From the NCBI GenBank assembly GCA_026874595.1, contig CM049307.1, forward strand, positions 42,042,362 through 42,106,361: a DNA stretch of 64,000 nt, in the 5' to 3' direction. Each line of letters begins with the position of its first letter. Position 1 is the stretch's first letter. Below, one piece after another: positions 6,813-60,065 of the stretch. This stretch comes from Sipunculus nudus (Eukaryota > Annelida > Sipuncula > Golfingiida > Sipunculidae). The position numbers and the translations under genes are program-made. The notes beneath the pieces are model-generated. The model was not told where the DNA came from and made no database searches. It saw only the letters and a list, made by a program, of their open reading frames with translations.

Positions 6813-7467
6813 TTTTTATGCCCCCGCCACAAAGTGGCCGGGGCATATAGTTTTACCCATGTCTGTCCTTCCGTCATTCCGAAATCAAACATTTGTACAG
6901 ACTTTTTTTCGCACTGCCTGCAGATATTGGCCTGATTTTTGGTGTGTGGGCAGATAATGACCAGTTACAGATCGAGTTCGCGTTTCGTCCCGGTTGACCT
7001 ACTTTTGACCGTTTTACGGCTCCTCAAATTAGGGAATTTCATGAAAAATAGAAATTTTCATGACATACACATGTACAGACTTTTTTTCGCAATGACTGCA
7101 GATACGGGCCTGATTTTTGGTGTGTGGGCAGATAATGACCATCTACAGATCAAGTTCTTGTTTTGTCCCAGTTGACCTACGTTTGACCTTGACTGCTCCT
7201 GAATATAGAAAGTTTAATGAAAAATAGAAATTTTCATAACAAATGCATATGTATGGACTTTTTTTCCGCAATGCCTGCACTCGGATACCACCCTGATTTT
7301 TTATGTGTGGGCAGATAATGACCAGTTACAGATCGAGTTCACGTTTCGTCCCCGTTGACCTACTTTTGACCATACGACACCTCCTGAACTTAAAAAATTT
7401 TACAAAATTTAACAAATGTTTCTAATTTGCCCCAGGCAGGGGCATTCGTGTGTTCCGACACATCTAG
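6813..7467 (+). mobile_element. family-5 Helitron-like element with 178-bp internal tandem repeats
   Basis: The 5' end is a hairpin: ATGCCCCCGCCAC, a three-base loop, then GTGGCCGGGGCAT (6818 onward). The same arm, GGGGCAT, returns at 7439-7445 near the 3' end. A second hairpin follows (TGTGT tccg ACACA) and the element ends TCTAG at 7467 followed by T. The interior has about three units of a 178-bp repeat: GTACAGAC at 6895 and 7073 and the variant GTATGGAC at 7251, each followed by the same GATTTTT(G/A)TGTGTGGGCAGATAATGACC-type segment. There is no coding capacity. I read it as a non-autonomous Helitron2/Helentron-type element. Confidence 0.7.
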
Positions 7468-12110: not shown

Positions 12111-12834
12111 TTTTAGCTCAGCTGACAAAAGTCATCTGAGCTATAGTCGTGGTCCTTTGTCCCTCGTCCATCTGTCTTGTCAGCCATTAACAGGGCATGT
12201 TTTAAAACTGTTGGACCTACAAATCCAAAATTTTGCATACTGTTAGATAACCCCAAAAATCTCCTACTATACCGAAAATTGGGTCACTACAACTTTGTTC
12301 CTTCGAGATATTGAGGAAAAACCTCCGTTTTCCATAAAAAAGCCATTGTTACACTACAAGGCTGCCTAATATCAAAACCACTGATCTGTTTTTGATCATA
12401 TTTGGTATGCATGTTCTTCCATACATTTTCTATTGACTTACAAAAATTAAGGTCAGTTTTGCGTACTGTTTTGAAGTTATTGGCCCAAACATTATGCAAT
12501 TTTTAAAAAATCAGGAAATACATTTACTCACTTAACATGAAAATTGCTGAAGCCGGAGACTTCAGGGATATAAATTTATTTAATCAAGATTCAATTGTTT
12601 ACCAAAAATTAGATCTGAATTTGCAAATGTTTTAATTTATTAGCATAAATAAAAATTGGTACCTTAAATTTTGTCCAACTTTGGCAACCGCCAGTTTTTC
12701 CTGTAAGCACTGTTGATTTAATTTTCACAGCATATATACAAAAGGATTTAATCTTCAAATTCTGAAATTTCAAAGGAATTGATTGAAAAGAGTAGCTTTT
12801 ATTCAAGTTTTCCAACACCAAACCAAAGAAAGTT
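12111..12834 (+). mobile_element. family-1 Helitron-like element, copy 1a, lacking 3' end
   Basis: It starts TTTTAGCTCAGCTGAC followed by the inverse arm GTCATCTGAGCT, forming the 5' hairpin typical of this family. The following GTCCTTTGTCC tract and the blocks 'aatccaaaattttgc' and 'aataaaaattggtacc' align with the full-length copies at 13308 and 57441. Homology runs as far as a 'gattgaaaagagtagcttttattcaagttttccaacacca' segment, then stops where a GC-rich block begins. No CAGCTGAGC/CCCTTG 3' terminus was found for this copy. Confidence 0.8.
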
Positions 12835-13195
12835 TACGCTCGTCGAGCAGCTACAGGTTGCTGTGGTCAAGACCTCAGCCTTGTGCGCTCCTTAAGCATG
12901 TTCTCATGAGCCAACAGACGCAACGCCACACCAAGCCGAGCAAGAGCCGCGAGAGGCCGCCACCGTACACCCCCAGCCGGTGACTTTTGGAAAGCTACAG
13001 CACCCACAGCCGCAAAGGCAGAAGCAACCCGCATTCCCTCCACCGATCCCAGCAGCGGAGACTCAGCCATGCCATTCAAGAGCCGAACTCCATCTTGTGA
13101 ACGACACTGTTTCGAGACCCATCGCCATTGTACTTGCAGTTCCGGCCATTTAGACCGTATTAACTGGGTTACCCAGTTATGCAAGTTTTTTTTGT
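12835..13195. other. GC-rich island of unknown origin between two family-1 copies
   Basis: Base composition changes sharply from AT-rich to clearly GC-rich and back. The minus strand has a 105-codon open frame (12867-13184) that includes alanine- and arginine-rich stretches but no domain I can name. The plus strand also has a short open frame. The block begins where homology of copy 1a stops and ends just before a C-tract. It may be a captured host exon or retroposed fragment, or an inserted foreign piece; I see no splice sites that would settle this. Confidence 0.5.
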
Positions 13196-13203
13196 CATCA
13201 GCT

Positions 13204-13223
13204 CCCCCCCCCCCCCCACCCCC
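13204..13223. repeat. C-tract
   Basis: A run of 14 C at 13204-13217, one A, then five more C. It is one of several long G or C homopolymers in the window. Confidence 0.9.
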
Positions 13224-13307
13224 TGATGGTGCATAATTAAACTAGATGAATGTTATAATTTTCTGCATTTGAGACATTCTTATTCTAGGCTATGCTACAT
13301 TTTAGAT

Positions 13308-16300
13308 TTTTAGCTCAGCTGACTATAAGTCATCTGAGCTATAGTCGTGGTCCATTGTCCGTCGTCCGTCCGTCTGTCCGTCCGTCCGTCCGTCCGTCCG
13401 TAGATGTGGCACGTTTTGAAACCGTAAGACCTAGGAATCCAAAATTCGGCATAATGTTAGATGTCCCCAAGATCTCCTACCAAGCCGAAAAACTGGGTGT
13501 TTGCAACTTCGTTCCTTTGAGAAATAAAGGAAAAACCTCAATTTTTTATTAAAAACCTATTTTCACACTTCAGGACTGTCTAATATCAAAACCACTCATC
13601 TGTTTTACCTCATATTTACCATAAATATTCCTCTATATAGTTCCTATGTACATGCCAGAAATTATGTCTGTATTATTTAATTTAAAAAAGTTATGGGCCC
13701 AAACATAATGCATTTTGTAAAAAATCAGAAAAGATATTTGATCACTTAACACAAAAAATGTTAATGCTATGGACCTTTTTTCCAGTAATATAACTTTAAT
13801 TAATCAAAATTAAATTGTATACCCAAAATTAGATGAAAATCTTTTAAATTTTTTAAAATATTAATAAAAATAAAAAATTGGTACCTTAAATTTTGCCCAA
13901 CTTTGACCATGGCACGTTTTTTTCCTGTTAGTACTGTGGATTTAATTTTCACAGCATGTTTTTGTTAGCATTTCAACTGTAAACACCAAAAATTTGAAAC
14001 CAGTTGATCAAAAACTGTAGATTTTAATCAAGTTTTCAAGCACCATGTAACATATTGTTTACATCAAGCTAGTGTTATGCAGTTTGCAAGAGCTCAGCTC
14101 CCCAGCTTCAGCTCTAAGTTCCTTAAATTCGGCATACAGTTAGATGTCTCCAAAATGCCCTACCATGCCAAGAATTTGGTCACTAGGACATTCGAGATAT
14201 TAATGAAAAACTTTATTTTTCCATTAAAAACCCATTGTTACACTTCAAGACTGCCTAATATCAAAACCACTGATCTGACTTTAATTATAAATAATATACA
14301 TATTTTTCATTCTCTATGCACATGCCAGAATGATGTCAGTATTGTGTAATTGTATCCGCCAAAACAGAGTTTTGCGGATACTATGTTTTCAGCTGGACGC
14401 CGCCGCCGCGGCCGCGTAGGTGTCCGGAGAACTCCTCCGTAACCGCTGGGCGGAATTTTCCGAAACCCGGGATTATGTTCGGTTCACATGTGAACTGCTG
14501 CGCCCCGATTTTGTTATGACCTCTGACCTTTCCTTTGCGCTCTGTGTCCGTTTGTGCGTCTGTTTCCACACATAAACCCACATATCTCGGGAACCGTTTG
14601 ACCGATCAGGAAAATTTTTTTGCACAAATGTAGCCCTCGGAGAGCTTTATAACATACACCAAAAATGGTGGCGCCACCTGCAACCATGTTTGCACAGTGT
14701 CCATCTGTTCGTCTGCCTTGGGTTAAAATTACTCATATCTCTGCAGTGACTTGACTAATTCACCTGAAATTCGGCATGCGTATACATCCTGGATAGCTTT
14801 TCTGATTTTATGACAGGTGGCGCCACCTACATTCACGTTTACGCTGCAGACATCCCAGCTCATATCTCGGGAACCGTTTGACCGATCAGGAAAATTCTTT
14901 TGCACAAATATAGCCCTTGGAGAGCTTTATAACATACACCAAAAATGGTGGCGCTACCTGCAACCATGTTTGCACAGTGTCCTTCTGTTCGTCTGCCTTG
15001 GGTTAAAATCACTCATATCTCTGCAGTGGTTTGACTAAGTCACCTGAAATTCGGCATGCTTATACATCCTGGATAGCTTTTCTGATTTTATGACAGGTGG
15101 CGCCACCTACAATCAAGTTTACGCTGCAGACATCCAAGCTCATATCTAGGGAACCGTTTGACCGATTGGGCCAAAATTTTGCATGTGTATAAATCTCACA
15201 TAGCTCTCTATCATATGCAAAACTGGTGGCGCCACCTGCAGCCATGTTTGCACAGCTCCCATCTGTTTGTCTGCCATGGGATAAAATCACTCATATATCG
15301 GCAGTGGTTTGACATATCTGCCTAAAATTTTGCAAGTTTATACATCCCCGACAGCTCTCTTGATTTTATGACAGGTGGCGCCACCTGCATTCTTGTTTAT
15401 GCAGCAGATATCCAAGCTCATATCTTGGGAACTGTTTGACCGATTGGGCCAAAGTTTTGCGTGTGTATAGAGCTTTCTGGATTTTTTCGTAGGTAGCGCA
15501 ACCTACATACACAATTTGGCTGCAGACAGCCATGCTAATATGCAACACTTCACCCGTTCCACTCTGATTTAGGCGGATACAAGTAGTCGCTTGTCGACTA
15601 CCCGTATTCTAGTTGTTTTAAGTTATGGGCCCAAACATGCACTTTGTAAAAAATCAAGAAATATATTTACTCCCTTAACAGAGCATTGCTGAAGCTAGAG
15701 ATTTTTTTGTCAGGGATGTAACATTATTTAATCAAGATTCAATTGAATACCCAAAATTAGTTCTGAATTTTTCAAATTTTATTTAGTATAAATATAAAAT
15801 TATTACCTTAAATTTTGCCCAACTGTGACCATGGCACATTTGTTTCCCGTGAGCACTGTTGATATAATTTTCATGTCATGCACACATAAGCATTTCAGCT
15901 TTTTAGTTTAGAAAGCTGAAAGAAATCGGCCAAAAATTGTAGCTTTTATTAATGTTTTTTATGAGACCCTGTCAGACTTTGGCTCTCTCCAGCCCCTCTT
16001 GAGTCACCTGTATGTTGACCTTGTTGACCTTTCATCAAATTATGCACGCTTGAGGCGAGGCATACATGGAATCCAGGCAGCTTATGGCAAGCCATAGTTG
16101 ATCCAGGTGTCCAACCCAACTCATCTAGTCGTTTTAACCAAGAACATAACAAAAAACAATAAATTAATAAATTTTTATTGGTTTTTAATAACAAATTAAA
16201 GAAAAATAGAAAAGGAATTTGTTAGTTTATAATAACAGGAAATTAACTTGCAGTTACTGATGATATAAGAATCTTGTATCGATGGGTAGAATGTCATATA

Positions 16301-17182
16301 TTCCAAATAACACCATGCAGTCACCTATGGCATTTTTCAGTTCAATTTTAATGATAAAGAAGTGAATCATATTATTCATTACTAATCATTAGGGATCATA
16401 TGAAGGAAATTAGACAAAGATGCAGTTGATAATATTAATCTAGATTCCTGCTGTGTCTAGTGTGTACATTGATGTGAAATTAGTCCAAAATGAATTTTTT
16501 ACAGTTATTTTTTAATATAAATAAAAGCCATAAAATCAGTTACTTATGATCATTATTTAAATGTGTGAATTTTGTTTATTCTGGATTCTCAACATCATTG
16601 TTTGGTGAAAACTGAATAAATTCCAGACATGGTGCAAATACTTAGTAATTGTATTTAAATACGAATATGATTTTGTACTCCATTATAAAATTTCTTGCAT
16701 AAAGAATGGGAATTCAGGTAAAAATGAAAATATATGAATACTCGTGCAAATACTTTCAAAATGTATTCATGAATGCATTCATGAATATATTCTTTAATAG
16801 TATTTTAATAATCATATCAGTTATATTTCATTTAAAAAAATCATATGATTCTCTTATTATTTTTAATAAAAATTATATTTGGGACAATATTTGTATTTTT
16901 TTAATAAATAGTTAAACTCTTATATTATATATTCTGCTTATAAGTTATATGGCCAAGTCAAAATCTCTGTGACAATAGTACTCCATTTGTTAATAAAATA
17001 AATGAAATCAATCCTCTTCCCTGTCTCCAAAGGTACTATCAAAATCATACATAAGCTAAACAACAACAACTCATAATACAGCTTATATTTATTACCACAC
17101 AAAACCAGCATGTGCCTCATTTCTAAATAATATTTTTTTTATCATATATAACAGCTGAGCGTCGTGACCCATAGGTCCCTTG
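13308..17182 (+). mobile_element. family-1 Helitron-like element, copy 1b, full length, interrupted by copy B
   Basis: The 5' end TTTTTAGCTCAGCTGAC with inverse arm AGTCATCTGAGCT forms a hairpin, followed by a (GTCC)n tract near 13355-13400. The 3' end has CAGCTGAGC at 17152-17160, the inverted copy of the 5' arm, then a GACCCATAGGTC near-palindrome and the terminus CCCTTG at 17182 followed by TTT. It aligns along its length with the copy at 57441-60065, apart from the nested family-3 element at 14350-15612. Without that insert it is about 2.6 kb. There is no significant ORF in either copy, so it is non-autonomous. Confidence 0.85.
14350..15612 (+). mobile_element. family-3 Helitron-like element, copy B, complete, nested in copy 1b
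   Basis: It starts TTGTATCCGCC and the arm is inverted at once (GTTTTGCGGATAC), giving a hairpin of about 13 bp. GGCGGATACA at 15572-15581 is the inverted copy near the 3' end, followed by the hairpin GTAGTCG cttgt CGACTAC, then CCGTATTCTAG ending at 15612. The interior is a tandem array with GGTGGCGCCACC palindromes at 14667, 14816, 14947, 15096, 15225, 15373 and a variant at 15492. The spacing alternates about 149 and 130 bp, so the higher-order unit is about 280 bp. Copy 1c preserves the empty site, which defines the ends. Confidence 0.85.
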
Positions 17183-17919
17183 TTTATTGTACCACCAGGG
17201 TTAGAATGATTAAAGTGCACATTTATTTGTGTCAACAATGTTGTGTATTTCTATATGCAAGTGTGGATGTTCATCAGATAAGGAATTCCTTACTTCAGAA
17301 GAGTAAAAACTTTACCAGGTTTGAAATTGACCATTAATTCCAATAATAAATAATAGCTGAGATAGTTATTAGCACAGTGATATTGTTTGTCCCTCATTCA
17401 ACCAACAGTGTGTACACTTTATTTGAAAAGATGTTTTTATCAAATTAACTTAATCTTATTTTTCAGTGAATAAAATTAAGCATATACTGAAAACTCCAAT
17501 GTACAAAACTTTTTAATAGTGATTCAAGGAATAATCTTGAAGATGCCATGTTGTGGCATTATTTTCTTTTAAATTCAGTTTAAACATTTGTGATTTAAAA
17601 ATAATAAAATATATGTTTATGCTTAATATTACCCAATATGAGCTACGTACACTCTAGAATAATAATGATTGCAACTAAGAACTGATATTTTAACTTATAT
17701 TTTCAGATTTTTTGACTTGTAAATAAAAAAAAATGAATCTGATAAAAACTATTATTGGAAAAAGTGGACATGCTAAAAAATAGGCTTTGGTATAAACTTA
17801 AATGCATTATTCCCATGAAAGTGAAATAAAGGTATCAGCCGATTCTGTCCACTTGCCTGACAATCTATAAATTTTTCATACGCATCACAGTATCTCAAAA
17901 CTTTTACTGTTTTTCTTCA

Positions 17920-18083
17920 TGACACTCTTGTCAGAGTATTAGTTTGAAATCATACATTTAGAACTTAACTAGGGCTTCTCATATGCTTATATATACAACA
18001 AAACATTACAGTACGATATTTTGCATATTTTGCCTTTGTAAAAACTTCAAACTTCAGCTGGGCACTGTGACCCATGGGTCCCT
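17920..18083 (+). mobile_element. family-1 Helitron-like 3' fragment
   Basis: It ends TTCAGCTGGGCACTGTGACCC, then ATGGGTCCCTTG, the family-1 3' terminus. The upstream 'atcatacatttag' and 'catattttgc' blocks match the 3' part of copy 1e near 29150-29303. No 5' terminus was found, so it is a fragment or a strongly deleted copy. Confidence 0.6.
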
Positions 18084-18084
18084 T

Positions 18085-18990
18085 GTTTTATCTGTTATTT
18101 TGTTGTGTCATAACATTATAGATCTCCCGTTATTTTTCCTTTTTAGTCATAACATTACATATCTCCTGCTGTTTTGTTGAGTCATAACAGAACAGATCTC
18201 CCATTATTTGTCTGTTGAGTCTTTACATGACAGGTCTCCTGTTGTTTGTTGAGCCATTACAGCACAGGTCTTCTGTTATTGGTCTTTTGAGTCATAACAG
18301 TACAGGCCTCTTATTATATAATGTTGGTTGAATAATATCAGAACACATCTCCTGTTAGGCAAAAAAAGAGGTTTTGTTGTCAGGCACTTTTTTTCAGAAA
18401 TCTATGCGGGTGGGCTTTTTTTATTTAAATTTTTTTTATGTTTCAATTAAAATGTCAAATGATAAGGGAAAAGTGTGATACTAACAAATTTATTTTGCTA
18501 AACAAGTAAAAGCATTACATAACAAAGGAAATTTTATCAAAATTGTATGATTTTATCTTCTTGAAAGGAAATGTCAGAGTGGCTGTAGCTCAAAATTGGT
18601 AAGTTTCTATTGAAAATCAAAATGTTTGATATGGTGGTTTTAAATTGACGTGGGCCAGTGCCTGAGAACCATACCTTAAATTTTTTGTTGGCCTTATTGG
18701 TCACAACAGAACAAGTGTCCTATTATTTGTCTGTTGAATCATAATAGTTCAGGTCCCTGGTTATTTGTTGGATGAGTCATAACAGTATAGGCCTCCTGTT
18801 ATTTGTTAATTGAGTCATAACAGTACAGGTGTCCTGTTATTTGTTGGTTGACTCATAATAGTAGAGGTCTCTTGTTATTTGTTGAGTAATAACAAAACAG
18901 GCGTCCTCTTATTTGTTGAGTTATAACAGAACAGGCCTCCTGTTATAAGTTAGTTGAGTCATAACAGTACAAACCTCCTGTTTATTTTTA
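18085..18990. repeat. 34-38 bp minisatellite, about 15 units, split by a MITE
   Basis: Units resemble GAGTCATAACAGTACAGG, then TCTCCTGTTATTTGTTG. They recur every 34-38 bp, for example at 18781, 18819, 18857, 18891, 18925 and 18963. Each unit contains a short inverted repeat (ACAGG tct CCTGT) and could fold into a small hairpin. The array is interrupted at 18358-18693 by a Harbinger-like MITE, which dates the array as older than that insertion. Unit length is not a multiple of three and varies, so coding is unlikely. Confidence 0.85.
18358..18693. mobile_element. PIF/Harbinger-like MITE 1 (TTA target duplication)
   Basis: It is flanked by TTA on both sides (18355-18357 and 18694-18696) and begins GGC, ends GGCC. 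The right end carries GTGCCTGAGAACCATACC; the left-end match is weaker here than in MITE 2 at 19112, with which it aligns throughout. Length is 336 bp with no coding capacity. A 3-bp TTA/TAA duplication with GG-starting ends is typical of PIF/Harbinger. Confidence 0.75.
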
Positions 18991-19111
18991 GCACATGGTC
19001 TTACAAGTAAACTGTATAAATATTTCCATAAACCAGAAAAAAGGAAATTTTCATGGTGCTTAGTAGAGCTCTGGCCAGTTCTGCCACATTAAAAAACACT
19101 TTGTTTCGTAA

Positions 19112-19425
19112 GGCAAAAAAAAGTATGGTTCTTAGGCACTTTTTTTTAAGAAATAAGTGCAAGTGGTATTTTATTTTTTTAAATTTTTTTTTACCTTTTT
19201 TGTATGTTTCGATAAAAATGTCATATGATCACAAAAAAGCATGAAAATAACAGAATGTTTTTGCTAAACAGGTAAAAGCAGTACATAACAAGGAAATTTT
19301 ATCAAAATTGCATTATTTTATCTTCTTGAAAGATGAATGTCAAAATAAAAAATTTTTTAGGGGGGGGGGGGGTTAAAATTGACGCGGGCTGTGCCTGAGA
19401 ACCATACCTTTTATTTTGTTTGGCC
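19112..19425. mobile_element. PIF/Harbinger-like MITE 2 (TAA target duplication)
   Basis: It is flanked by TAA (19109-19111 and 19426-19428). The left end GGCAAAAAAAAGTATGGTTC and TTAGGCAC is the inverse of the right end GTGCCTGAGAACCATACC...GGCC. It aligns with MITE 1 over most of its length, including the segment 'acataacaa(a)ggaaattttatcaaaattg'. A 13-nt poly-G run at 19360-19372 lies inside this copy only. Length is 314 bp, non-autonomous. Confidence 0.8.
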
Positions 19426-19428
19426 TAA

Positions 19429-20660: not shown

Positions 20661-20664
20661 CTAA

Positions 20665-22085
20665 ATGTTCATAAAACAAAGTGCTCCAGAAAGAATCCTA
20701 GGATATGTGAACTTTGTAGCAGTGCTCTGGCAAAATCCTGCCTTGCAAATTCTGAATGGAATATTCCTTGCACAAATTTTCCGTAAGCAGATTCCTTCAT
20801 GCAGGAAGTGTCCAGAGCCAATTGTTTTCTGTTTGTTCCACATATAAAATATAGTTTTAGAAGTTTGCTGACAAATTTTCTCCAAAGAAAAATGTTCTTT
20901 GTGGAACTACTTGAACAGATTTTTCTCAAGCAAAATTTCTTTTTGAAAGTACTCAGATTTTTCCCAGGCAGAATGTTATTTGTGGAGGAGATAGACAAAT
21001 TACTCCTGGGGAAAATGTTTTTTGTTTAAGTACTCTGACAATTTTTTCCATGCAAAGTGTTATTAATTAATGAAATATTCCTTCTTATTTTACCTTCCGA
21101 AAATGCTCTTTGTAGAATTACAGTGACAATATTTTCCAGATCCATTTTTTTCAGACTTTTCCAGACCCATTCAATCAGAATTTCCCTGGCCAAAATATTC
21201 TTTTTAGAAGTGCACAGGCAGTTTTTACCTAATTTCAGTGTTTTTATGAAATTTCAGGACAAACATGATCAAAGCAAAATGTTCTTTGCAGAAGCATCAG
21301 GGCGATCTTTGCCAAAGCAAAATATTGTTTAAGGAAGTTACAGGACAATTTTTAGCACAGCAAAATGTTCTTTGTATAAATGAAAGGGCAATTTTTAGCA
21401 CAGCAAAATGTTCTTTGTAGAAATGACAGGGCAAATTTTAGCACAGCAAAATGTTTTAAGAGAAATGACAGGGCAGTTTTTAGCACAGCAAAATATTTTT
21501 TATAGAAATGACAGGGCAATTTTTAGCACAGTAATATATTGTTTCAGGAAGTGACAGTGCAAGTTTTAGCACCACAAAATATTGTTCATGGAAGTGACAG
21601 AGCATATTTTACTAAAGCAAAATATTGTTTATGGAAGTGACAGAGCAAATTTTACTAAAGCAAAATATTGTTTTTTGGGAGTGACAGAGCAAATTTTACT
21701 AAAGCAAAATATTGTTTATGGGAGTGACAGGGCAAACTTTTGCACAACAAAATGTTGTTTTTGGGAGTGACATGGCATATTTTAGCACAGCAAAAGATTC
21801 TTTACAGAAATGACATGGCAAATTTTATCATACTAAAATTTTGTTTTTGGAAGTGACAGAGCAAATTTAAGCTCTTTAAAATGTTGTGTTTGAAGTGACA
21901 TGGCTCATTTTTGCAATGCAAAATATACCAAAGCAAAATATTGTTTTTTGAAGTGACAGGGCAAATTTTAGCACAGCAAAATGTACTTTGCAGAAGTGCT
22001 TAGACAGTAACTCTTTTTGTACAAGCCCTTGTGAAAGTTCCAAATGGATGTTCTCTTGGGAAAATTTTCTTTGTGGCAAACGTCA
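20665..22085. repeat. 43-bp minisatellite, about 30 units, degraded toward both ends
   Basis: The best-preserved units (about 21340-21990) read GAAGTGACAGAGCAAATTTT then A(C/G)(T/C)A(A/C)AGCAAAATATTGTTT, with starts at 21421, 21463, 21592, 21635, 21679 and 21722, a period of 42-44 bp. Diverged units can be followed left to about 20670 (aaaatgttctttgtgga) and right to about 22085. Homogeneity is highest in the middle, as expected when unequal exchange acts centrally. Because 43 is not a multiple of three, each unit shifts the frame, so open frames across the array are repeat artefacts. Confidence 0.85.
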
Positions 22086-38500: not shown

Positions 38501-38896
38501 AGGAATTTGATATATTAGCCTGAAATTGGGCATATATATACATATCGAATAGCTTTGTCGTATACAAGACTGGTGGTGCCACTTACAATAATTTTTGCAC
38601 AGTGTGTGTCCCTGCATATTTTCAGGAGGGGTTTGATATATCAGTCTGAAATTGGGCATATGTATATATCTCTGATAGCTTTGTTGTATACAAGACTGGT
38701 GGTGCCAGCTACAATCATTTTTGTGTTGTGTGCACCCATGCCAGAATTTCAGCAGTGATGTTTGTGTAATTGTTTCTTATTCAAAATGTTTAGTACTTGC
38801 ATTGTTCATATACATGAGAAGTAATGGTCCAGCATTGAAGCATTATACCTGGTGTATTTCCCAATGCACAGGTTCGCATTAGGCCTGTAGGCCTTG
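35501..38896 (+). mobile_element. family-2 Helitron-like composite element, copy 2b
   Basis: The 5' end TTTTTAGCGAACC (35506) and 3' end CACAGGTTCGC (38867-38877), hairpin AGGCC TGTA GGCCT and CTTG at 38896 match copy 2a. It has the same stacked 5' ends: a second at 36857 (AGCGAACCTGTGAGC) and a third at about 38107. Relative to 2a it has about 290 extra bases near 36490-36780, lacks the 85-bp duplication and lacks roughly 330 bp around the 22-bp minisatellite. The paired copies therefore share a composite ancestor. Non-coding. Confidence 0.85.
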
Positions 38897-38930: not shown

Positions 38931-39836
38931 TTCTCAGCTGTGATTCCATCTAGTGTCCCAAAACCTGGTGTGGATGCCATATAGTTATCACCCTGTCTGT
39001 CTGTCTGTTCGTCTGTCTGTCTGTTTGTCCATCCTTTTATCCACAGAAATTTGTTTCCAGATGATAACTCCAGGTTGGATTTTACATATGGATTTCAAAC
39101 ACGACTTAAAATGATCCACCACTAAAGAAAGAACCTGTATGATTTTTTGGTCATTAGGTCAAACGTCAGGGTCACAAAACTCACTTATTTAAAAAAATTA
39201 TGGCTGCATTTTAAGCCAAGCTTTTCATCCCAAACTTTCTGTCTTGCACATTTAGCTGACTTACCAGTATGGGGAGAGCATAAATGAATTTGGGGTCACT
39301 AGGTCAAAGGTCAAGGTCACAGGGGCCATTTGTTCACAAGTTAGTTTCCAGGTGATAACTCAAGTTTAGTTTGACATATTGGTTTCAAACTTAACTTATA
39401 TATGGCTCACAACTAAAGTAAGAACCCTGTTGATTTTGGTGTCCAAAGGTCAAAGATCAAGGTCACAGGACCCATTTCTTTAAAAGGAATGTTTATGCAT
39501 TTCAAACCAAACTTTTCATCACAAACCTTCCATCTTCAAGATATTACTCACCTGCCGATAGGGGACGATTCTTTTCAATTTAGGGTCATAGGGTCAAAGG
39601 TCAAGGTCACAGGGCCCATCAATTCACAAATTAGTTTATGGATGATAATTCTGCCTTGGCTAGAGGGATTGGCTTCAAACTAGATCTATTAATGACCCAC
39701 CACTTAAGTAAGAAACATTTTGATTTTCAGGGTCCTGAGGTCAAAGGTGAAGGTCACAGGATGGTTATTCTGAAAAATGTCTTCAAAATATCCTTATAGA
39801 CAAATACAGCTGATGTGGAAACCCCTGGGTCCCTAG
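38931..39836 (+). mobile_element. family-4 Helitron-like element with arrayed AGGTCA direct repeats
   Basis: The probable 5' end is TTCTCAGCTGTG (TCAGCTGT at 38934). The inverted copy ACAGCTGA at 39806-39813 is followed by a short hairpin (ACCC ct GGGT) and terminus CCCTAG at 39836, then TT. A (CTGT)n tract lies at 38993-39030. The interior has five monomers, each with a core like AGGTCAAAGGTCAAGGTCAC, at 39156, 39301, 39447, 39591 and 39738 (spacing 145, 146, 144, 147 bp). Flanking text alternates between two types, so the true unit is about 290 bp. The 5' boundary is less certain than the 3'. Confidence 0.7.
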
Positions 39837-40601
39837 TTAGCTCAGTTGATGTTAAGTCGTCTGAGCTATAATCATGGTCCTTTGTCTGTCGTCCTGCTGG
39901 CCATTAACAGGTCATGTTTGGAATCGTTGGAACTACAAATCCAAAATTTGGCATACAGTTAGATGTCTCCTACCATACTGAAAATTGGGTCACTAGGACT
40001 TCATTCCTTCGAGATAAAAAGGAAAACCTCAATTTTCGATTAAAAAACCCATTTTTACACTTCAAAACTACTTCAAAACCTACTTTCATAACCACTGATC
40101 TGACTTTGATCATATTTGATATACATATTCTTCTTTGCTATGTACATGCCAGAAATTATGTAAGTATTGCCTAATTTTTTAAGTTACAGGCCCCAACATA
40201 ATGCACTTTGAAAAAAATCAAGAAATATATTTACTTGATTAACATGAGAACTGCTGAAGCGAGAGACTTTTTTTCAGGGTATAACATTATTTAATCAGGA
40301 TTAATTGGATACCCAAAATTAGATCTGAATTTAGGAATTTTATTAGTTATTAGCAAAAATATAAAATCAGTACCTTAAATTTTGCCCAAATTTGGCTATG
40401 GCATGTTTTTTTCCTCCAACTGCTGTGGATTTAATTTTCACAGCATGTTTAAATAAGCTTTCATCTGTTAAAATCTGAAAGCCATTTTCTCTTAGCTTAT
40501 CAAATGCTAATATATATGAAAAACCAAAAGAAATAAGTATATTTTGCATTTGATAAAATTTTCAAAAATTAAGCTGAGCGACATGACCCATGGGTCCCTT
40601 G
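39837..40601 (+). mobile_element. family-1 Helitron-like element, copy 1d, internally deleted
   Basis: It starts TTAGCTCAGTTGATG directly after the family-4 CTAG end. It ends AAGCTGAGCGACATGACCC, ATGGGTCCCTTG at 40601. Both termini are present, but the element is only about 765 bp, so about 1.8 kb of the full-length form is missing. Interior blocks such as 'aatccaaaatttggc' and 'taccttaaattttgcccaa' align with 1b and 1c. Confidence 0.85.
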
Positions 40602-43813: not shown

Positions 43814-44398
43814 TTGTATCCGCCAAAACAAAGTTTTTGTTGTTTTTGACTGGGTTCTGCCGCCGCGGCGTTCGTTTCCAGAATAGAACTCGGACACCAC
43901 TGGACAGATTTTCCGAAACTTTACACGATTATCGGGTCACATGTGAACTGGTGCCAAAATATTTTGCGTTGACCTCTGACCTTTCCTCTCTCCAGTGCGT
44001 CCATCTGTGCATCTGTTTTGACACATTAACCCGCATATCCCAGGAACCATTTGACCAATCAGGAAAAAAATTTTGCACAAATGCTTTATAACATACATAA
44101 AAACTGGTGGGGCCACCTGCAACCATTTTTGCACAGCGTCCGTCTGTTTGTCTGCCGTAGGATAAAATCATATATAAGTAGTGGTTTGACTTTTTGCATA
44201 TGTATACAACTTGGACAGCTTTCTGGATTTTGTCGTAGGTGGTGCCACCTACATTCACATTTTGGCTGCAGACATCCATGCTCATAGCTACACGCCTCAC
44301 TCTATTTCCCCTTGCCACTCAATCCATGCCTCACTTCACGTGTCCCACTCTGATTACAGCGGATACACGTAGTTGCTTGTCGACTTCCCGTATTCTAG
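43814..44398 (+). mobile_element. family-3 Helitron-like element, copy C, short
   Basis: It starts TTGTATCCGCCAAAAC directly after the solo LTR. The inverted arm GCGGATACA at 44359-44367, an imperfect hairpin (GTAGTTG cttgt CGACTTC) and CCGTATTCTAG ending at 44398 match copy B. Only two monomers are present, with GGTGGGGCCACC (about 44106) and GGTGGTGCCACC (about 44238). A minus-strand frame (43929-44318) spans it but translates the repeat itself. Confidence 0.8.
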
Positions 44399-45165: not shown

Positions 45166-45169
45166 TTAA

Positions 45170-47444
45170 GGTCTAATCATCGTCTAACAACCTTGGGTAA
45201 ATTTAGCTGTAGAATTCATATTAATAATAATTTTAGACACAGTGATGTATATATATTTAGAATCCTCAGAAAATTCTCTATCAGATGAGGTATATTGAAA
45301 AAGTGTAACAGTGTCCACTTTGAAAATTTAAAACTTGAAATGATTTAAAATAATTTTTTTTTAAATTGGATATATCTCAAAATTGGCATAGGGTATGTGT
45401 GTGGAAATAGTATCATTTGAAACTACATACAAATATCTCCAGGCGTTTTTTTTTGGTTATATATTTAAAGTCTTTTTTTCATAAATTTAAATTTAAAAAA
45501 AAAATGTGTGATGTTTACAATACTTATTTTGTTTAGATAACATATTTCTACTATACTAAAAACGATATAGGAAAAAGAAAAAATCACATTTTAGAATACT
45601 TGTTGATTTACCTATATTCAAAATTTGAAGACTCTATATTTGATGGTTTTTGAGAAATATCGCTCTGAAGACCGTACAGTCTCCTGAAATCCTGTTTTGA
45701 GAAAACGGCCAAAAACTGTTTGGGAAGAGAAATTTCGTTTTGAGTGGTAAACAGGGATATAAGCGCAAGTGACAGTTGTATTTTTTCACTAAATGTTCCG
45801 ATGAGAATAGGTTTCAATATATAAATTATAAAATTTTATGGTTTATCAATGTTAAAAAAGGGATTTTGTTAGGCATCATGACAACTGGAGAACTGTCAAA
45901 CTAAAGCAGGCGGAGCTTACTGGTCCGAGCGGCTGGTCATTGGTAATCAGATCATTGGCTACCGCGCCGGGGCACGCGTCAGGTGTGAAGTGACTGATAA
46001 GAACGATCACTCTGTTTACTCTGCGCTCTCATTCAAACTACCATGCATATGCCCTAATCCAATTAACAACTTGTCTCTCCCTCTCACATTTATATATGAG
46101 ACACTACATAGCTAGCAGCAACACATATCTCTCTCTCATTAGATTTATATACACCATTCATATATACCACATACAAATGCAACCCCTGATACCGTGCAGT
46201 CAGCCGAGTCGTGTTGTCCCCTCAATGATCGTCCTACCTCTGATAGATGTTTGTCGCACACTTCAGTTGTCACTTCAGAGAGTACCTTGGAATGATGTAA
46301 CCAGCTGTTGGATAAAACGGGAGGAGGAATGTTCATAAATGCGCTAAATCGTGCTGCGGCTGCTCTTCCTTACCGATCGCTCTCATAGCTAAGACTCCGG
46401 CGCGGTTCACTTCGCAAAATTTGTTAGCAGGCGACGTGGTGGTGTAACTTGGTGCCGCGTTCCTTTCACAAAATTCATTCGTGCAACGCAGTCCCATATT
46501 GCTGCACCACACTCGGCGTTTATCTACATCCTCCACTAACGATAAATTTCCTTCACGGCATATGGCACACACTGCTGCGGTAGCCAACAACATAGCAAGT
46601 TGGCCGCACTGCCACAGACGGTAGGTAACTGATTCTGGAACTCCGGGTTGTACTGATTCCATGTTTTCGTCACTTGACGACTCAGAATCGTCATCTCTGT
46701 GTAGTTTCGTTACGGACACAGGAACCTTGTGATCAGCTGTATGTGATTGTCACTCGTTCAATTAGCGAATTTTATCTTCGCTCATTCTACTCTTTTTTCT
46801 TCGACCCATGACGTTCAGTTTGAGGATAGTGTATATTATATAAGAAGGAAAGATGTATTCGGTAATTGTTTTGGCGATGTAATGATGGACCCTGGGAGAA
46901 AATGTTATATTGTATAGCAGGGTCAATATTACAGAAATAACAATCGGTAAATTTATATTTCTGGGTATATTCTTGGTGCCAGGACCATTATTGGGTGACA
47001 CTAACATATTTTAGGGCAGTGACAAAGACATTATTCGGGGACTGGAGGAGTACGATGTACAGTTTACTTCTGGGTTAGGCGTATAGGGGGACGTGTTTGT
47101 ATCAATTAGTGCCAATTAGTAAGTGCCGGTAATAAAGATTAGCTCTTTCCCGGCTGACTGACCGCGGCTTCCCCACGCCTGTCAATCAACCATTTGCCTA
47201 ACGCCACGACCGCATGGTTAACCAATAAGCAACTGACACGCTGCTAACTCTCGCCGATCTGACAGTTGGTCCTGTTTGCACCCCACGTGGGGTTGACATC
47301 TGAAATAAAATACTTATTTTTCTAACTGATACAATATAACCCCAGGAACGTGTTTTTGTGAAAAGATAGATATAGCAATCATCTATAAAACCAGATGTTT
47401 TTCAGAAAAACGTAATTTTCATGATTTTTGACGATGATTAGACC
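45170..47444 (-). mobile_element. TTAA-flanked DNA transposon with transposase remnant
   Basis: GGTCTAATCATCGTC at 45170-45184 is exactly inverted at 47430-47444, and TTAA flanks both ends (45166-45169, 47445-47448). The element is 2275 bp and is more GC-rich in its middle than its surroundings. The minus strand carries a broken Mutator-like transposase domain (46145-46809). TTAA duplications are known for piggyBac and Kolobok; the GG-starting ends and this protein domain favour a Kolobok-like element over piggyBac, whose ends usually start CC. The superfamily assignment is inference. No intact gene remains, so this copy is not autonomous. Confidence 0.8.
46145..46809 (-). pseudogene. Mutator-like transposase N-terminal domain, broken
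   Basis: Reading on the minus strand from ATG at 46807-46809, a basic start (MGRRKKSRMSEDKIR) runs into stop codons at 46762-46764 and 46750-46752. The same frame then stays open to 46333. It contains an acidic/serine stretch, then CAIC, SLVEDVDKRR, LRCTNEFC and VNRAGVLAMRAIGK: zinc-ribbon-like CxxC and CxxxxC pairs followed by the conserved 'N...A.RAIGKG' block of the Mutator-like transposase domain found in many invertebrate genomes. Near 46366-46372 the frame shifts; the next frame continues the family pattern with FSAFMNIPPP to about 46215. The catalytic part is absent. Two stops plus a frameshift show it is dead. Confidence 0.75.
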
Positions 47445-47448
47445 TTAA

Positions 47449-47600: not shown

Positions 47601-47740
47601 TTTTCAGCTCAGCTGACACAGTCATGCTGAGCTATAATGATGAGTCTTTATCCATTGCCTGGCTTGAGGTATACCTGTCTCTGAGTAAGGCACAAATCTT
47701 AAAGATTCAAACCAATTCTTACTCAGCAGAGGAGGGGATA
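47601..47740 (+). mobile_element. family-1 Helitron-like 5' fragment
   Basis: TTTTCAGCTCAGCTGACACA, GTCATGCTGAGCTATAATG at 47601-47640 reproduces the family-1 5' hairpin. 'aaggcacaaatcttaa' further on matches the 1e subfamily. Similarity fades by about 47740 and no 3' end was found. Confidence 0.6.
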
Positions 47741-50199
47741 TAGTGATCTGCTCTGTTTGTTCATCTGTCTGTCTGTACGTTGCTCCATAAAAAATTTCTA
47801 TGTGTATCAATATCTCCAAAAGATTTTCTCAGATCTACTCATGATTAAAATTGATGCTGTATCTTATCGGTCTTCAGGGGTCTTCCTCATAATTTACATC
47901 TAATTAAAATGGCAGGTGTACCTTATGGTTCTCTTAGCCTGATTAGGTTTTGGTCACACTTGAATGATTTTTGGATTTCTGCCCCCCTCTAATTGATATG
48001 GAAAGAGTATCTTATGCCTCTCCTACCCTGATAAACATGTTCAATCTGCTGCACATAAACATGTTCAATCTACTGCACACAAACATGTTTAAGTTTTGCA
48101 AATAATTATGGTTTGCAACTAGAGACCTTTTAATGTTGGCATATATATTTATATGCCAACAGCCAGCTTAGGTTATATGGTTCTTCTGTTTAACAACATG
48201 GATGCAAGTACTGTGTTTACTAACAGCTTGTAGGTAAACAGGCTCGTATATCCTTCACAGTTATGTTATACAAAGCTCTCATACCTATAGTTCATTCATA
48301 TGTATATGGAATGAGCCAAAAATCACAAAATTTGGCACATAAAGCAGCTAAATAACTGGCTAAATTGCTTAATAGCCTTGCCAAATTGTTTTTGATGGTT
48401 TTGAAAATTACAGTTTATTTGAAATACAAGACCGTTGTTGTTACATATATTTCTGTTGCCTCAGTTTGGTGGATTTCAGCACCGCCTTTGTTTGATGAAT
48501 GTATTAAAGATATTTCTGAATTAGAAGGTTTTATGTGATAATACATTTACAGTATGTGATAAATTATATTTAATACATCAGAGAGTCAACGTATCACTAA
48601 GATTATTTGCAGTTACTTGACTCAAAATAGGTGTGATGTTATCAAATAGATTTGTTTACCAGGTTACAGAATACCCTTCGTAAACAGGTTATGCAATACA
48701 AAGAAAAACTCTGGTTACCTTGAATTAGCAGGATAATGCATTTAGGATTAAGACAAATTGAAGGTGACAGTATCATGTTTTACAGCAGACATAGAAGTGT
48801 TGTTCAAGTCCTTAGTAAAAAGGGCTTGCCAGTATAAACTTGTTTAGTGTTTGCTATATTACATTGGTTAAGTGTGGTGAAAAGGAGTAATGGGGCATAG
48901 TAGGGTAGCATTTAGCTGGGACTTCAGTGCTATGTATCACAGCGGGGTCTTTATCCATTTATCTGACACAGTAAGTCATGTTTTTTAGTGTCAGCTCAAT
49001 ATTGGTAAATAAACGTACAGGGTGATCAAAACCCCACCCTGGGCTGGTGTAAGCAGAGATTTATGTACTTGTAAATGATCATTGGTGGTGGCCAATAGGG
49101 AGCTCAAGTGTAATTGTATTGCAAATGTTTCCCCAGTTTCACTTAGTGTTGAAGAGGCACACAAATCTAGGGTCCAACTGTTTACACTTTGCCTGTTCAT
49201 GCCTTTGTAGAGACAGGCCCTCTCCGGCGACTCAGACAAATTTGCTGTGTGCTCTAATAGACACGTTGCGCTTTGGCTTTCATTGTAGGGTAAGGTATCG
49301 CTTCAGTGACACGATAGGCAAAATACTTGTACGTCTTGTGTGTGGTTTCCCTGGGGTCAGACATTCAGCGCAGACTTAGGTGGTAGGGAATCTCTCTCTC
49401 AAGGCCAGCTCATGTATGTATACACTGTGTCCTATCAGACCTGTTTAGTGAGGCTGTCAGCACCAGCCTTTATCAAGAGCAGTGCTTACTCGCTGAAGGT
49501 ATATGGAAAGAGCTGATCACTTAAGCCGGCAGATACTCTGAACTTATTTCACCGCTTGGGGGCCAGCTCAATTGCACCTTATTAGGTGAACTTGTGGTGT
49601 GATAGTATTGAAGCAGAACGTGGGTAAGTAATTAATTCTTTGAAAGGCACGGGTGGGAGAGCACTTGACAATCTGTAGATGGGTGAACAGCTACTATATG
49701 TAAACAGATTTAACACCGGGGGAGCTGTTGGGGGGAGCTACAGAATAATTCATATGGCCCAGCAGTCCGTCGTATCATTTACTTTAAACCATAGCCATAG
49801 GCACTTAGACTCGAAATGACTCGGCCCTGCCCCACTGTAGGCAAGTATCTTGATTTATTGCACTATCTCAGGTCCAGAAACTTTCATAATTTGATAGTCA
49901 TGTTAGTGATGTTACTGTAGTATCCCCACGAGAAGGGAGGCAGCAGGCTATTATTAGCAGGCTGAAAATTGACTTGATGTGGCAGCATAGCAGGCCTGGC
50001 TCTGATGGATAGAGTATGGCAAGTAGCACTGTATGCCCCTCCTCGCCAACAACTCCAGCCTCCAGCTTGGCCTCTCCGGGGAGTTGAGACCTTAAACAAG
50101 GCCACATAAAACAGCAGTAGAACTGGACCTCGACCAGCTGCCTGTCCAATCGTCTTCCTGTGCCTCTCGCCACCTGTCATTATTAATACTCATACATCT
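47741..50199. other. unique sequence, more balanced toward 49000-50170
   Basis: A 'ctgtctgtctgtacgttg' segment at 47768 hints at another degraded repeat. From about 49000 to 50170 the DNA is more complex and less AT-rich, with small overlapping frames on both strands (48991-49239, 49119-49379, 49884-50180) that lack domains. It may be another conserved non-coding stretch. Confidence 0.3.
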
Positions 50200-53439: not shown

Positions 53440-54560
53440 GTGTTTTCCCTGAAAAAAAATGGGAAGTTAAATTTCTTCTCAACAAACAGAAAATTTTCAT
53501 TCTTCATGGGGATTTTTGAATTCTGTTTCCTCATAGAATATGTGGAAATTCTAAAAACTTATGGAACTTGAGAATTTGATGTCAATTTTCCTCATGGAAT
53601 ATGTGGAAATTTTATATCATCATGGAAGTATTGAGAATTTGATGTCTATAGGAACAATTAAAACAAAATTTACCTTTTCTCAGGACAAATGGCTAGTTAA
53701 TTTCTTCTCAACAAATGAAAATTCTCTTTCTTCATTTGGACAATTTAAATTCTGTTTTTTTCAAGGAATATGTGGTAATTCTAAATGCTCATGGACCTAT
53801 TTAGAATTTGATGTCTTTAGGAACAAATGGAAATTTGTGTTTTCTCAGGACACAAACAGTAAGTTAATTTCTTCTCAAAAACAAATGTGAATTATCATTC
53901 TTCATGGGGACAATTTAAAATCTGTTTCTTCAAGGAATATGTGGAAATTCTAAAGGCTCATGGAACTATTGAGAATTTGATGTCTATAGGAACTATTGAG
54001 ATTTGTGTTTTTCTCAGGACAAACGGCACAATTTCTTCTCATAACAAATTGAAATAATCATTCTTCATGGGGACAATGTAAATTCTGTTTCTTCAAGGAA
54101 TATGTAGAAATTCTAAATGCTCATGGAACTATTGAGAATTTGATATCTATAGGAACTATTGAGATTTGCGTTTTCTCAGCACAAATGGCAAGTTTATTTC
54201 TTCTCAACAAATGAAAATTCTCTTTCTTCATTGGGACAATTTAAATTCTGTTTTTTTTTCAAGGTTTCTTCAAAGAATATGTTGATATTCTAAATCCTCA
54301 TGGAACTATTGAGAATTAGATGTCTGTAGTAACAAATGGAAATTTGTGTTTTCTCTATACGAAGGGCAAGTTAATTTCTTCTCATAACAAATGGAAATAA
54401 TCATTCTTCATGGGGACAATTTAAATTTTGTTTCCTCATGGAATAAGTGGAAATTGTTTCCTCATGGAACCATTGAGAATTTGATGTCTCTTAGGAACAA
54501 ACAGGAATTCTGTTCATTCTTTGAACAAAATGGAACTGTTTTCTGATGCAACAATGTGTA
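53440..54560. repeat. 165-bp tandem array, about six to seven units
   Basis: The phrase GGGACAATTTAAATTCTGTT recurs near 53740, 53905, 54070, 54231 and 54414 (first and third variants), spaced about 160-180 bp. Other shared phrases are 'aaggaatatgtggaaattctaaa', 'catggaactattgagaatttgatgtctataggaac' and 'gtgttttctcagga'. Diverged material with the same words continues to about 54900. Several open frames overlap it but contain only translated repeat. Confidence 0.85.
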
Positions 54561-57440: not shown

Positions 57441-60065
57441 TTTTAGCTCAGCTGACTTTAAGTCATCTGAGCTATAGTTGTGGTCCATTGTCCGTCGTCC
57501 GTCAGTCTGTCTGTCCGTCCGTCTGTCCGTAGATGTGGCACGATTTTGTACTGTAAGACCTAGGAATCCAAAATTTGGCATAGTGTTAGATGTCCCACAG
57601 ATCTCCTACCAAGCCGAAAACTGGGTCTTTGCGACTTTGTTCCTTTGAGAAATTAAGGAAAACCGCAGTTTTTTATTAAAAACCTATTTTCACACTTCAG
57701 GACTGCCTAATATCAAAACCACTCATCTGTTTTTCCTCATATTTACCATAAATAATCCTCTATATAGTTTCTATGTACATGCCAGAAATTAGGTCTGTAT
57801 TATATAATTTAAAAAAGCTATGGGGCCCAAACATAATGCATTTTGTTAAATAATCAGGAAAGAAATTTGATCACTTTTCACAAAACTTGTTAAAGCTAAG
57901 CACTTTTTTTCCAGTAATATAACTTTTATTAATCAAAATTAAATTGTATACCCAAAATTAGATCAAAATCTTTTAAATTTTTTAAAATATTAGCAAAAAT
58001 AAAAAATTGGTACCTTAAATTTTGCCCAACTTTGACCAAGGCACGTTTTTTTCCTGTAACTGCTGTGGATTTAATTTTAAAAGCATGTTTTTGTTAGTAT
58101 GTTAACTGTTAACACAAAAAATTTGAAACCAGTTGATCAAAAACTGTAGATTTTATTCAAGGTTTCAAGCACCATGTCACATATTGTTTACATCAAGCTC
58201 CCCAGCTTCAGCTCTAAGTTCCTTAAATTTGGCATACAATTAGATGTCTCCAAAATCCCCTACCATGCCAAGAATTTGGTCACAAGGACTTAATTCCTTC
58301 GAGATATTAATGAAAAACTTCATTTTTACATTAAAAATTCATTGTTACACTTTATGACTGTCTAATATGAAAACCACTGACCTGACTTTGATCATATATA
58401 ATATACATATTTTTCTATACATTCGCTATGCACATGCCAGAAATGATGTCAGTATTGCCTAATTGTTTTAAGTTATGGGCCCAAACATAATGCACTTTTT
58501 AAAAAATCAAGAAATATATTTACTCCCTTAACAAGAGGATTGCTGAAGCTAGAGATTTTTTGTCAGGGATGTAACATTATTTAATCAAGATTCAATTGAA
58601 TACCCAGAATTAGTTATGAATTTTTCAAATTTTAAAAGTTATTAGTATAAATATTAAATTAGTACCTTTAATTATGCCCAACTTTGACTATGGCACGTTT
58701 GTTTCCTTAGAGCACTGTTGATATAATTTTCATATCATGCACACACAAGGATTTCAGCTTTGTAGTTTAGAAAGCTGAAAGAAATTGGCCAAAAATTGTA
58801 GCTTTTATTGATGTTTTTATGAGACCATGTCAGACCCAGGCTCTACCCAGCCCCTCTTCAGTCACCTGTATGTTGACCTTGTTGACCTTTCAGCAAATTA
58901 TGCACGCTTGAGGCGAGGCATACACTGGGGCAACCAGGCAGCTTATGGCCAGCCACAGTTGATCCAGGTGTCCAACCCAGCTCATCTAGTAGTTGTTTTG
59001 AAAAACAACATAACAATAAACAATAAATTAATAACTTTTTTTGGTTTTTAATAACAAATTAAAGAAAAATTAATAGAAAAGGAATTTTATTAGTTGATGA
59101 GTAACAGGAAATTATCTTGCAGTTACTGATGATAAAATAATCTTGTATGGATGGATAGAATGTCAATGTCAATGTTATTCCAAATAACACCATGCAGTCA
59201 CCTATGGTATTTTTCAGTTCAATTTTAATGATAAAAAAATAAATCATATTATTCATTACTAATCATTAGGGATCATATGAAGGAAATTAATGATAGACAA
59301 AGATGCAGTTGATAATATTAATCTAGATTCCTACTGTGTCTAGTGTGTTGATTGATGTGAAAGTAGTCCAAAGTGAATATATTACATTTTTTTAATATAA
59401 ATAAAAGCCATAAAATCAGGTACTTATGATCATTATTTAAATTTGTGAATTTTGTATATTCTGGATTCTCAACATAATTGTTTGGCTAAAACTGAATAAA
59501 TACTAGACATGGTGCGAATGCTTTGCAAATGTATTTGAATATGAATATGAATATGTACTGTATTAAAAAATTTCTTGCATAAGAATGGGAATTTAGGTAA
59601 AAATGAAAGTATTTGAATACCAGTGCAGATACTTTCAAAATGTATTCATGAATGCATTCATGAATATATTCTATAATATTATTTCAATAATCATATCAGT
59701 TATATTTTATTTTTTAAAAATCATATGATTTTCTTATTATTTTTTTTAATAAAAATTATATTGGCACAATATTTGTTATTAAATTTTAATAAATAGTTAA
59801 ACTCTTCTATTATATGTGCTGCTTATAAGTTATATGGCCAAGTCAAAATCTGTGTGACAATAGCACTCCATTTTTTAATAAAATAAATGAAATCAATCCT
59901 CTTCCCTGTCTCCAAAGATACTATCAAAATCATACATAAGCTAAACACCAACAACTGATAATACAACTTATATTTATTACCACACAAAACCAGCATGTGC
60001 CTCATTCCCAAATCATATTTTTTATCATATATAACAGCTGAACGCCGTGACCCATGGGTCCCTTG
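57441..60065 (+). mobile_element. family-1 Helitron-like element, copy 1c, full length
   Basis: The 5' end TTTTAGCTCAGCTGACTTTA and AGTCATCTGAGCT starts at 57441; a (GTCC/GTCT)n tract follows at about 57490-57530. The 3' end ACAGCTGAACGCCGTGACCC, ATGGGTCCCTTG ends at 60065. It is 2.62 kb and is near-identical in long stretches to copy 1b. At 58461-58470 it carries the uninterrupted site (AATTGTTTTA) where copy 1b holds the family-3 insertion. No frame longer than about 80 codons is present. Confidence 0.9.

Follow-up and report, generated by a model that had tools for sequence, protein, structure and literature searches.

Helentron-like repeats of Sipunculus nudus share a local orientation that follows genes in the regions sampled

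In the genome of Sipunculus nudus, repeats of five families that are almost certainly non-autonomous Helentrons (HINEs) point the same way as nearby members of the other families, orientation being set by place and not by family in the matches sampled, and they lie in sense near most of the genes that were checked. As a pattern in the regions sampled, this gene-following local orientation is well supported, and to our knowledge it is new. HINEs themselves are a published class, of which the elements described here are new members; the new part is the shared, gene-linked orientation, and among the open-licence PMC papers listed in our searches we saw none on how Helitrons are oriented with respect to genes or to replication. 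The elements were defined in a window of 64,000 nucleotides (the whole stretch of DNA analysed, C2:42042362–42106361) and were searched for in a genome of 1.4265 Gb in 153 contigs.

Five families in the window and their class

Eleven pieces of elements taken from the window itself were used as a library, which masks about 31% of it, self-matches being counted. Read from left to right, always on the + strand, the window holds an F5 element (6818–7467) with a 5′ hairpin ATGCCCC..GGGGCAT, 178-bp central repeats in 2.7 copies and a 3′ end made of GGGGCAT, a hairpin and CTAG; the 5′ part of an F1 element (12115–13311), with no 3′ end before the next F1 start; and a second F1 element (13312–17182, by library match) split by a nested F3 element (14351–15612). 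The two parts of the split copy, 13312–14353 and 15604–17183, match positions 1–1022 and 1008–2622 of F1 57445–60066 with 88–89% identity, and the uninterrupted counterpart of the insertion lies near 58430–58510. The nested F3 displays a 5′ hairpin, 280-bp repeats in 3.1 copies and a 3′ end consisting of GGCGGATACA, a hairpin and CTAG. Next come an F1-type 3′ portion ending in GACCCATGGGTCCCTTG (17232–18085, its left limit set by an 84% match over 775 bp to the C1 piece L001), an F1-type 5′ end (27564–28400, by motif and library match, with an arbitrary right limit) and an F2 element ending in AGGCCTGTAGGCCTTG (29534–33184, by motif and library match). An F1-type 5′ end (35134–35506, by motif and library match) directly precedes an F2 copy represented by its 5′ part (35507–36501, by library match), and is followed by a full-length F2 element with 126-bp repeats (36858–38896, by motif, repeats and library match), by the F4 element (38934–39836), which its 3′ end marks as related to F1 and whose 5′ limit comes from one copy, and, head-to-tail 2 bp further on, by an F1-type element (39839–40601) with a 3′ end placed by motif. 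The remainder comprises a diverged F3-type element (43815–44397, 72% over 520 bp), an F1-type 5′ end (47606–48400) whose right limit is arbitrary and whose later part may be another repeat, and the full-length F1 reference copy (57445–60065, by motif and library match).

The first-pass annotation had ascribed to all five families one architecture, in which the 5′ terminal motif reappears inverted about 25–40 bp from the 3′ end and is followed by a hairpin. A motif scan recovered the quoted terminal motifs of every family in the window; the inverted motif starts 29–41 bases from the end, and all five families have a subterminal inverted repeat at the 5′ end that is inverted again near the 3′ end. 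In F1, the inverted motif of the reference copy (57445–60065) is CAGCTGAAC, the exact CAGCTGAGC being found in the copy that ends at 17182. Complementary 3′ arms are seen in F1, F2, F3 and F5, which fold at best modestly better than shuffled sequences (z 0.4, −1.8, −2.3 and −1.3, respectively); the short hairpin attributed to F4 is unstable on folding (z +1.3). Strong 5′ hairpins, unremarked in the annotation, appeared in the three families whose 5′ ends were folded (z −4.2 for F1, −5.0 for F5 and −7.2 for F3). Thus, the shared architecture stands for F1, F2, F3 and F5 and was overstated for F4, which has no stable 3′ hairpin and a 5′ end known from one copy, and which is a relative of F1. The ends had also been called unrelated between families, which fails for the 3′ ends of F4 and F1, since they share CAGCTG and GGGTCCCT. 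Because of this resemblance, and because the central repeats of F2 match those of F3 (64–67% over 208–311 bp), the five families are not all independent. Note that among the distinct 29-base variants of the F3 hairpin, 292 of 329 cells are paired; five of seven double changes keep the pair, four of them at CpG sites, and we do not claim covariation, because decay alone at CpG sites gives the same result.

In the F3 and F1 cases examined, the target is TT or T-rich, and at the F3 site it is not duplicated. Comparison of the F3 insertion at 14351–15612 with the uninterrupted F1 copy at 57445–60065, which provides one empty site, places the insertion at TT without duplication, and F1 ends are followed on the right by T-rich sequence: of about 10,677 ends reading CCTTGT, none continues with GAC and 6 continue with TGAC. 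The canonical Helitron1 (5′ TC, 3′ CTRR, insertion between A and T) was considered and rejected, as the 5′ ends read AGCTC, GCGAAC, TGTATC and ATGCC, F4 alone starting with TC; the 3′ ends are CTTG in F1 and F2 and CTAG, which fits CTRR, in F3–F5; and F3 is inserted at TT.

Ends, hairpins and central repeats uphold the proposed Helitron2/Helentron-like reading for F1, F2, F3 and F5, and F4 fits as a relative of F1. HINEs have been described in the Pacific oyster (Cg_HINE; PMC7492417) and, as HINE/DINE-1, in a mite, Culex and Drosophila (PMC4067079). In the excerpts of these reports used here, they resemble the window families in having two modules, subterminal inverted repeats, a 3′ palindrome, central satellite-like repeats, a T-rich or TT target and no target duplication, the comparison being of architecture as described. 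Whereas the oyster elements could not be related to the 10 autonomous ones reported in the same excerpts (PMC7492417), two autonomous elements share the 3′ end of F1 here. As outlined in PMC5148889 and PMC4067079, Helitron2 likewise has asymmetric terminal inverted repeats and hairpins at both ends, a comparison that for the 5′ hairpin concerns F1, F3 and F5; its proteins are outlined there as devoid of endonuclease, whereas two of the Rep-helicase elements described below (L047 and L048) have one, a third (L049) has a sub-cut-off match and in the fourth (L050) none was detected. The last two being the partners of F1, these fall between the definitions of Helentron, whose autonomous protein has a C-terminal AP endonuclease domain, and Helitron2. 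Helraiser, a bat Helitron1, is portrayed in extracts of PMC4778049 and PMC5876387 as a Rep-helicase element with one-strand transposition and no target duplication, as here, and in the former also as preferring expressed genes; it differs in inserting at AT and in combining 5′ TC with 3′ CTAG.

Other searches of the window were negative within their scope: no Rfam match reached the gathering score, ARAGORN returned no tRNA gene, Pfam gave one sub-cut-off match and identified no gene among 10 of the 162 unmasked reading frames of at least 55 amino acids, and one frame compared with the PDB had no match.

Genome-wide abundance and autonomous partners

The 3′ ends of all five families, and the 5′ end of F1, were counted across the genome, a variable gap being allowed in the F1, F3 and F5 patterns. 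The F1 3′ end gave 10,677 matches (5348 forward, 5329 reverse) and the F1 5′ end, inverted arm included, 25,960 (12764/13196); the F2 3′ end was found at 7,360 exact places (3737/3623), and the F3 and F5 3′ ends gave 8,043 (4067/3976) and 3,628 (1794/1834) matches. The F4 3′ end is rarer, with 159 exact places (82/77). Given that the reversed-pattern controls yielded 1/0 for F3 and 0/0 for each of the other patterns, the terminal-motif matches are not chance. Strand totals are balanced genome-wide for F1, F2, F3 and F5. At least two of the 100 F3 places listed are without the F3 hairpin.

The Helitron Rep domain gave at least 143 exon-level matches genome-wide, 150 of 195 candidates having been scored, and four Rep-helicase elements with long open frames (L047–L050) were read. 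Two of them, L050 on C7 and L049 on C17, encode Rep and PIF1-type helicase domains and carry the F1 3′ terminus about 0.9–1.0 kb beyond the open frame in the same orientation, exactly in L050 (at 6677) and with one mismatch in L049; the match concerns the 3′ end, the 5′ ends of both elements lying outside the stretches. A stop codon close to its end divides the L050 frame into 1658 and 170 amino acids. The similarity of L050 to F1 is confined to the final 32 bases of F1, which means that L050 is more than a helicase gene with an F1 HINE next to it. L047 and L048 have endonuclease matches above the cut-off (Exo_endo_phos, 40.0 bits, and Exo_endo_phos_2, 32.9 bits, respectively), the corresponding score in L049 being 20.5 bits against a cut-off of 24.5; none of the five 3′ ends has a counterpart in the stretches read for L047 and L048. 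The expectation of an autonomous element with matching 3′ termini was therefore borne out for F1, in two of the four elements, and not for F2–F5, none of whose 3′ ends occurs in the four stretches. Judging from these termini, mobilisation of F1 by such a Rep-helicase element is supported, and the idea that one Rep-helicase mobilises all five families in trans is not supported by the four stretches read.

Orientation by place and relative to genes

In the excerpts of PMC7492417 used here, oyster HINEs are said to integrate in both orientations; these and those of PMC4067079 include no local or gene-linked orientation test, and the extracts on Helraiser (PMC4778049, PMC5876387) no orientation analysis. 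In the window, all 161 library matches are on the + strand, self-matches included and the library having been taken from the window. This same-way pointing of the window elements had gone unremarked in the annotation.

For the 3′-end patterns of F1, F2, F3 and F5 the first 100 matches were listed, all on C1, reaching 5.7 Mb for F1, 11.2 Mb for F2, 12.9 Mb for F3 and 24.5 Mb for F5. Before 1.231 Mb, all 92 listed 3′ ends are on the − strand (41 F1, 28 F2, 13 F3, one of these without the F3 hairpin, and 10 F5), as are 60 of the 61 listed F1 5′ ends. The F1–F3 ends then alternate in runs: + at 1.233–1.473 Mb (14/14), − at 1.491–1.551 Mb (8/8), + at 1.610–1.677 Mb (6/6) and − at 1.703–2.227 Mb (10/10). 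As exceptions, the first run contains an F5 end and an F1 5′ end that are both on −, and the last contains two F1 5′ ends, at 2.068 Mb and 2.225 Mb, that are on +. Beyond 2.2 Mb the runs are shorter, and many are broken by single opposite elements.

Outside the first block, that is beyond 1.231 Mb, neighbours of different families agree in 20 of 24 pairs at 1–5 kb, 19 of 24 at 5–10 kb, 52 of 57 at 10–20 kb, 86 of 116 at 20–40 kb, 134 of 224 at 40–80 kb and 207 of 367 at 80–160 kb, agreement being lower at 1–10 kb (39/48) than at 10–20 kb. With shuffled labels the mean agreement is 0.50, and none of 1000 shuffles matched the 10–20 kb value. Agreement within families is similar (45/48 at 10–20 kb), and 35 of 39 F1 5′ ends in the same region have the orientation shown by at least two of the three 3′ ends closest to them. 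As a control we used a MITE-like repeat drawn from the window and the gene pieces (2,066 places), the lack of a window tRNA gene having closed the tRNA route to a SINE control. At distances of 2–20 kb, 162 of 185 HINE pairs beyond 1.231 Mb agree, against 3 of 10 MITE-like pairs (Fisher P = 9e-5, the pairs being non-independent). At other distances the MITE-like pairs agree in 2/2 (below 2 kb), 4/9 (20–50 kb), 11/15 (50–100 kb) and 9/27 (100–200 kb) cases; the places listed for this repeat, at 1.7–50.8 Mb, form few pairs, and most of them fall outside the part of C1 that the HINE lists span.

For the comparison with genes, RhoGEF exons (37 matches, grouped into 26 loci) and kinesin exons (126 matches, 13 loci) served as landmarks; 18 stretches upstream of RhoGEF exons, the weakest matches being omitted, and eight stretches in the middle of kinesin introns were chosen. 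The pieces number 65 in total; L001 and L002 (no gene) and L047–L050 (the autonomous elements) had been set aside before genes were counted. Nineteen of the 65 pieces have library matches, and 42 of the 44 matches are in sense, several of which may belong to one element. Counted by gene and by hand, with L014 and L036 taken as one, 16 of 18 genes have sense matches only and two have antisense matches only (binomial P = 0.0013). The antisense cases are L037, where the match (66% over 194 bp) is to a segment of doubtful identity, and L069 (81% over 47 bp). When these are set aside together with L022, whose sole library match is to the same uncertain segment as in L037, all 15 remaining genes are in sense (P = 6e-5, after a post hoc exclusion). 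The eight kinesin mid-introns contain two clear HINEs, both in sense (L067 and L068), the weakly antisense L069 and five pieces with no match; intron position is certain only for pieces between kinesin exons, and the gene sample is small, with two gene families. The MITE-like repeat lies both ways in the gene pieces (2 sense vs 3 opposite).

End motifs in the 65 pieces were also read. For 3′ ends, 10 point with the gene and 0 against it (8 places after removal of double readings). For 5′ ends, F1 gives 6 same and 3 opposite, F3 3 same and 4 opposite, and F2 1 same. Of the seven opposite motifs, two come from the inverted arm belonging to the same F1 end, another is the 3′ motif of F3 itself, and two are a single 3-mismatch site read twice; those in L004 (1 mismatch) and L037 (3 mismatches) stand alone. 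Other repeats are common to the gene pieces: some lie one way and may be HINEs outside the library, and others lie both ways.

How the orientation may be set

A strong strand preference that follows genes makes it possible to test, by sequence alone and in any Helentron-rich genome, how Helitrons choose their targets and whether they need a single-stranded one. It would also allow an abundant repeat class to be read, strand by strand, as a trace of the germline transcription or the fork direction of the past. The best explanation of the whole, to which we give about an even chance, is that these HINEs are moved by a Rep-helicase and insert into the single-stranded, T-rich coding strand of transcribed genes. 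A resident Rep-helicase Helentron would nick one strand and peel it off, and the peeled strand would enter a T-rich target without target duplication, in a direction fixed by the target region and common to the families. The HUH nuclease would need a target that is both single-stranded and T-rich, which genes transcribed in the germline could provide in the form of their displaced coding (non-template) strand; insertion would therefore be in sense and independent of family. That the target is single-stranded, that transcription is its source and that insertion rather than survival sets the orientation are points that we infer. As presented in the parts of the literature cited here, HUH nucleases act on ssDNA substrates with a conserved polarity (PMC5876387), and Helraiser insertions show a 2.1-fold enrichment in gene bodies for the 500 genes with the highest expression (PMC4778049). 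An excerpt of PMC5717806 similarly links the direction of human L1 insertion to transcription, via transcription-coupled repair; L1, however, is a retrotransposon biased against sense, whereas the elements here are rolling-circle DNA elements lying mostly in sense.

Agreement extends over tens of kb, a scale that fits genes. The 1.23-Mb block of C1 is unlike a single gene, being much longer than usual, and would fit either forks that run towards a chromosome end or a transcription domain of an unusual kind. It is a tentative and rather doubtful extension that the orientation of HINEs preserves, like a fossil, the pattern of germline transcription, marking transcription units and their direction, with the C1 block as one very long germline transcription domain such as a unistrand piRNA-like cluster.

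If replication forks set the orientation instead, Helentrons would enter the single-stranded lagging-strand template and would lie in sense where forks and genes run together. IS608, also an HUH element, is described in part of PMC5876387 as depending on replication for ssDNA, and the one-way C1 block would have the expected sign were it a chromosome end with outward forks, as may be supposed. However, cross-family agreement outside the block drops from 52/57 at 10–20 kb to 134/224 at 40–80 kb, which to us indicates a gene-like rather than a replicon-like scale, and 15 sense orientations in 15 clear genes exceed what we would expect from a loose co-orientation. Rare F1 patterns sought as a check on chromosome ends gave 0 and 6 matches, too few to decide; two of the six lie near contig ends, at C1:109.99 Mb of 110.9 Mb (+) and C2:0.17 Mb (+), one fitting the fork model and one against it. 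On this evidence we regard fork direction as unlikely.

Selection could act on insertions of random direction if antisense copies in introns damaged transcripts, for instance through cryptic splicing or polyadenylation, and were lost for that reason. Selection is a published explanation for the orientation bias that TE sequences and ERVs show within human introns, in the portions of PMC3517506 and PMC1794541 used here, and the T-rich sense strand of HINEs would give A-rich signals in antisense. Selection should strengthen the bias with age, whereas F3 ends at the consensus are no less ordered (49/56) than those with one difference (15/21) or with two or more (34/46), as judged from other-family neighbours at 1–40 kb, a 29-base age proxy and non-independent pairs; moreover, the bias is near complete and extends over 1.23 Mb. 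Selection accordingly appears quite improbable.

It is very improbable that the clusters merely grew one way, by HINEs entering HINEs in a fixed orientation or by the copying of blocks with their elements: nested and head-to-tail copies do occur (F3 in F1, F1 after F4, and F3 in F2 in the piece L063), and F2 and F3 3′ ends lie 189–218 bp apart at at least seven C1 places among the matches listed and read by hand, but cross-family agreement continues at 10–40 kb with pairs below 1 kb omitted, and such growth by itself leaves the match to gene direction unexplained.

Base skew, which we keep apart from the orientation evidence, favours G over C (+0.059) and T over A (+0.041) in the non-HINE DNA of the window. 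In 44 gene pieces, read on their sense strand, it is +0.045 for G over C and +0.007, not significant, for T over A, and in 26 flank or intron pieces it is +0.022 for G over C (P = 0.04). The G–C skew is opposite in L001, from the one-way block (−0.125), and is +0.019 in L002.

Orientation of HINEs at the start of C1

The start of contig C1 carries a block dense in non-autonomous Helentrons (HINEs) that run one way (C1:64037-1229180, 1.2 Mb): among the matches listed, 92 of 92 HINE 3' ends and 60 of the 61 5' ends of family F1 lie on the minus strand. The control for orientation was a MITE-like repeat, present in the window at 18355-18685 and 19105-19341 with the terminal inverted sequences GGTTCTCAGGCAC / GTGCCTGAGAACC, whose core motif occurs at 2,066 places genome-wide and which shows no clear orientation bias. 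Exact matches to the control motif are absent from the block itself, the first on C1 lying at 1.675 Mb.

Composite F2/F3 units

In one genomic stretch (L063), the F2 element at 1801-3227 is interrupted by an F3 copy, which lies about 170-200 bp upstream of the F2 3' end. Since a comparable F2/F3 spacing, 189-218 bp, recurs at seven places on C1 among the matches listed, such composites may spread jointly, as single units.

Other open frames and tandem repeats

A 138-aa open frame on the minus strand of the window (46336-46749), which we take to be similar to mollusc transposase-like proteins, gave no Pfam match. Two tandem arrays in the window, of 43 bp (14 copies, 21316-21926) and 163 bp (5.4 copies, 53587-54501), stand outside the HINE library. 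Tandem units of 63 bp, each with CAGCTGACAAA, also occur in the autonomous Rep-helicase element L049 (1-480, reverse complement), within the open frame and upstream of the Rep domain.
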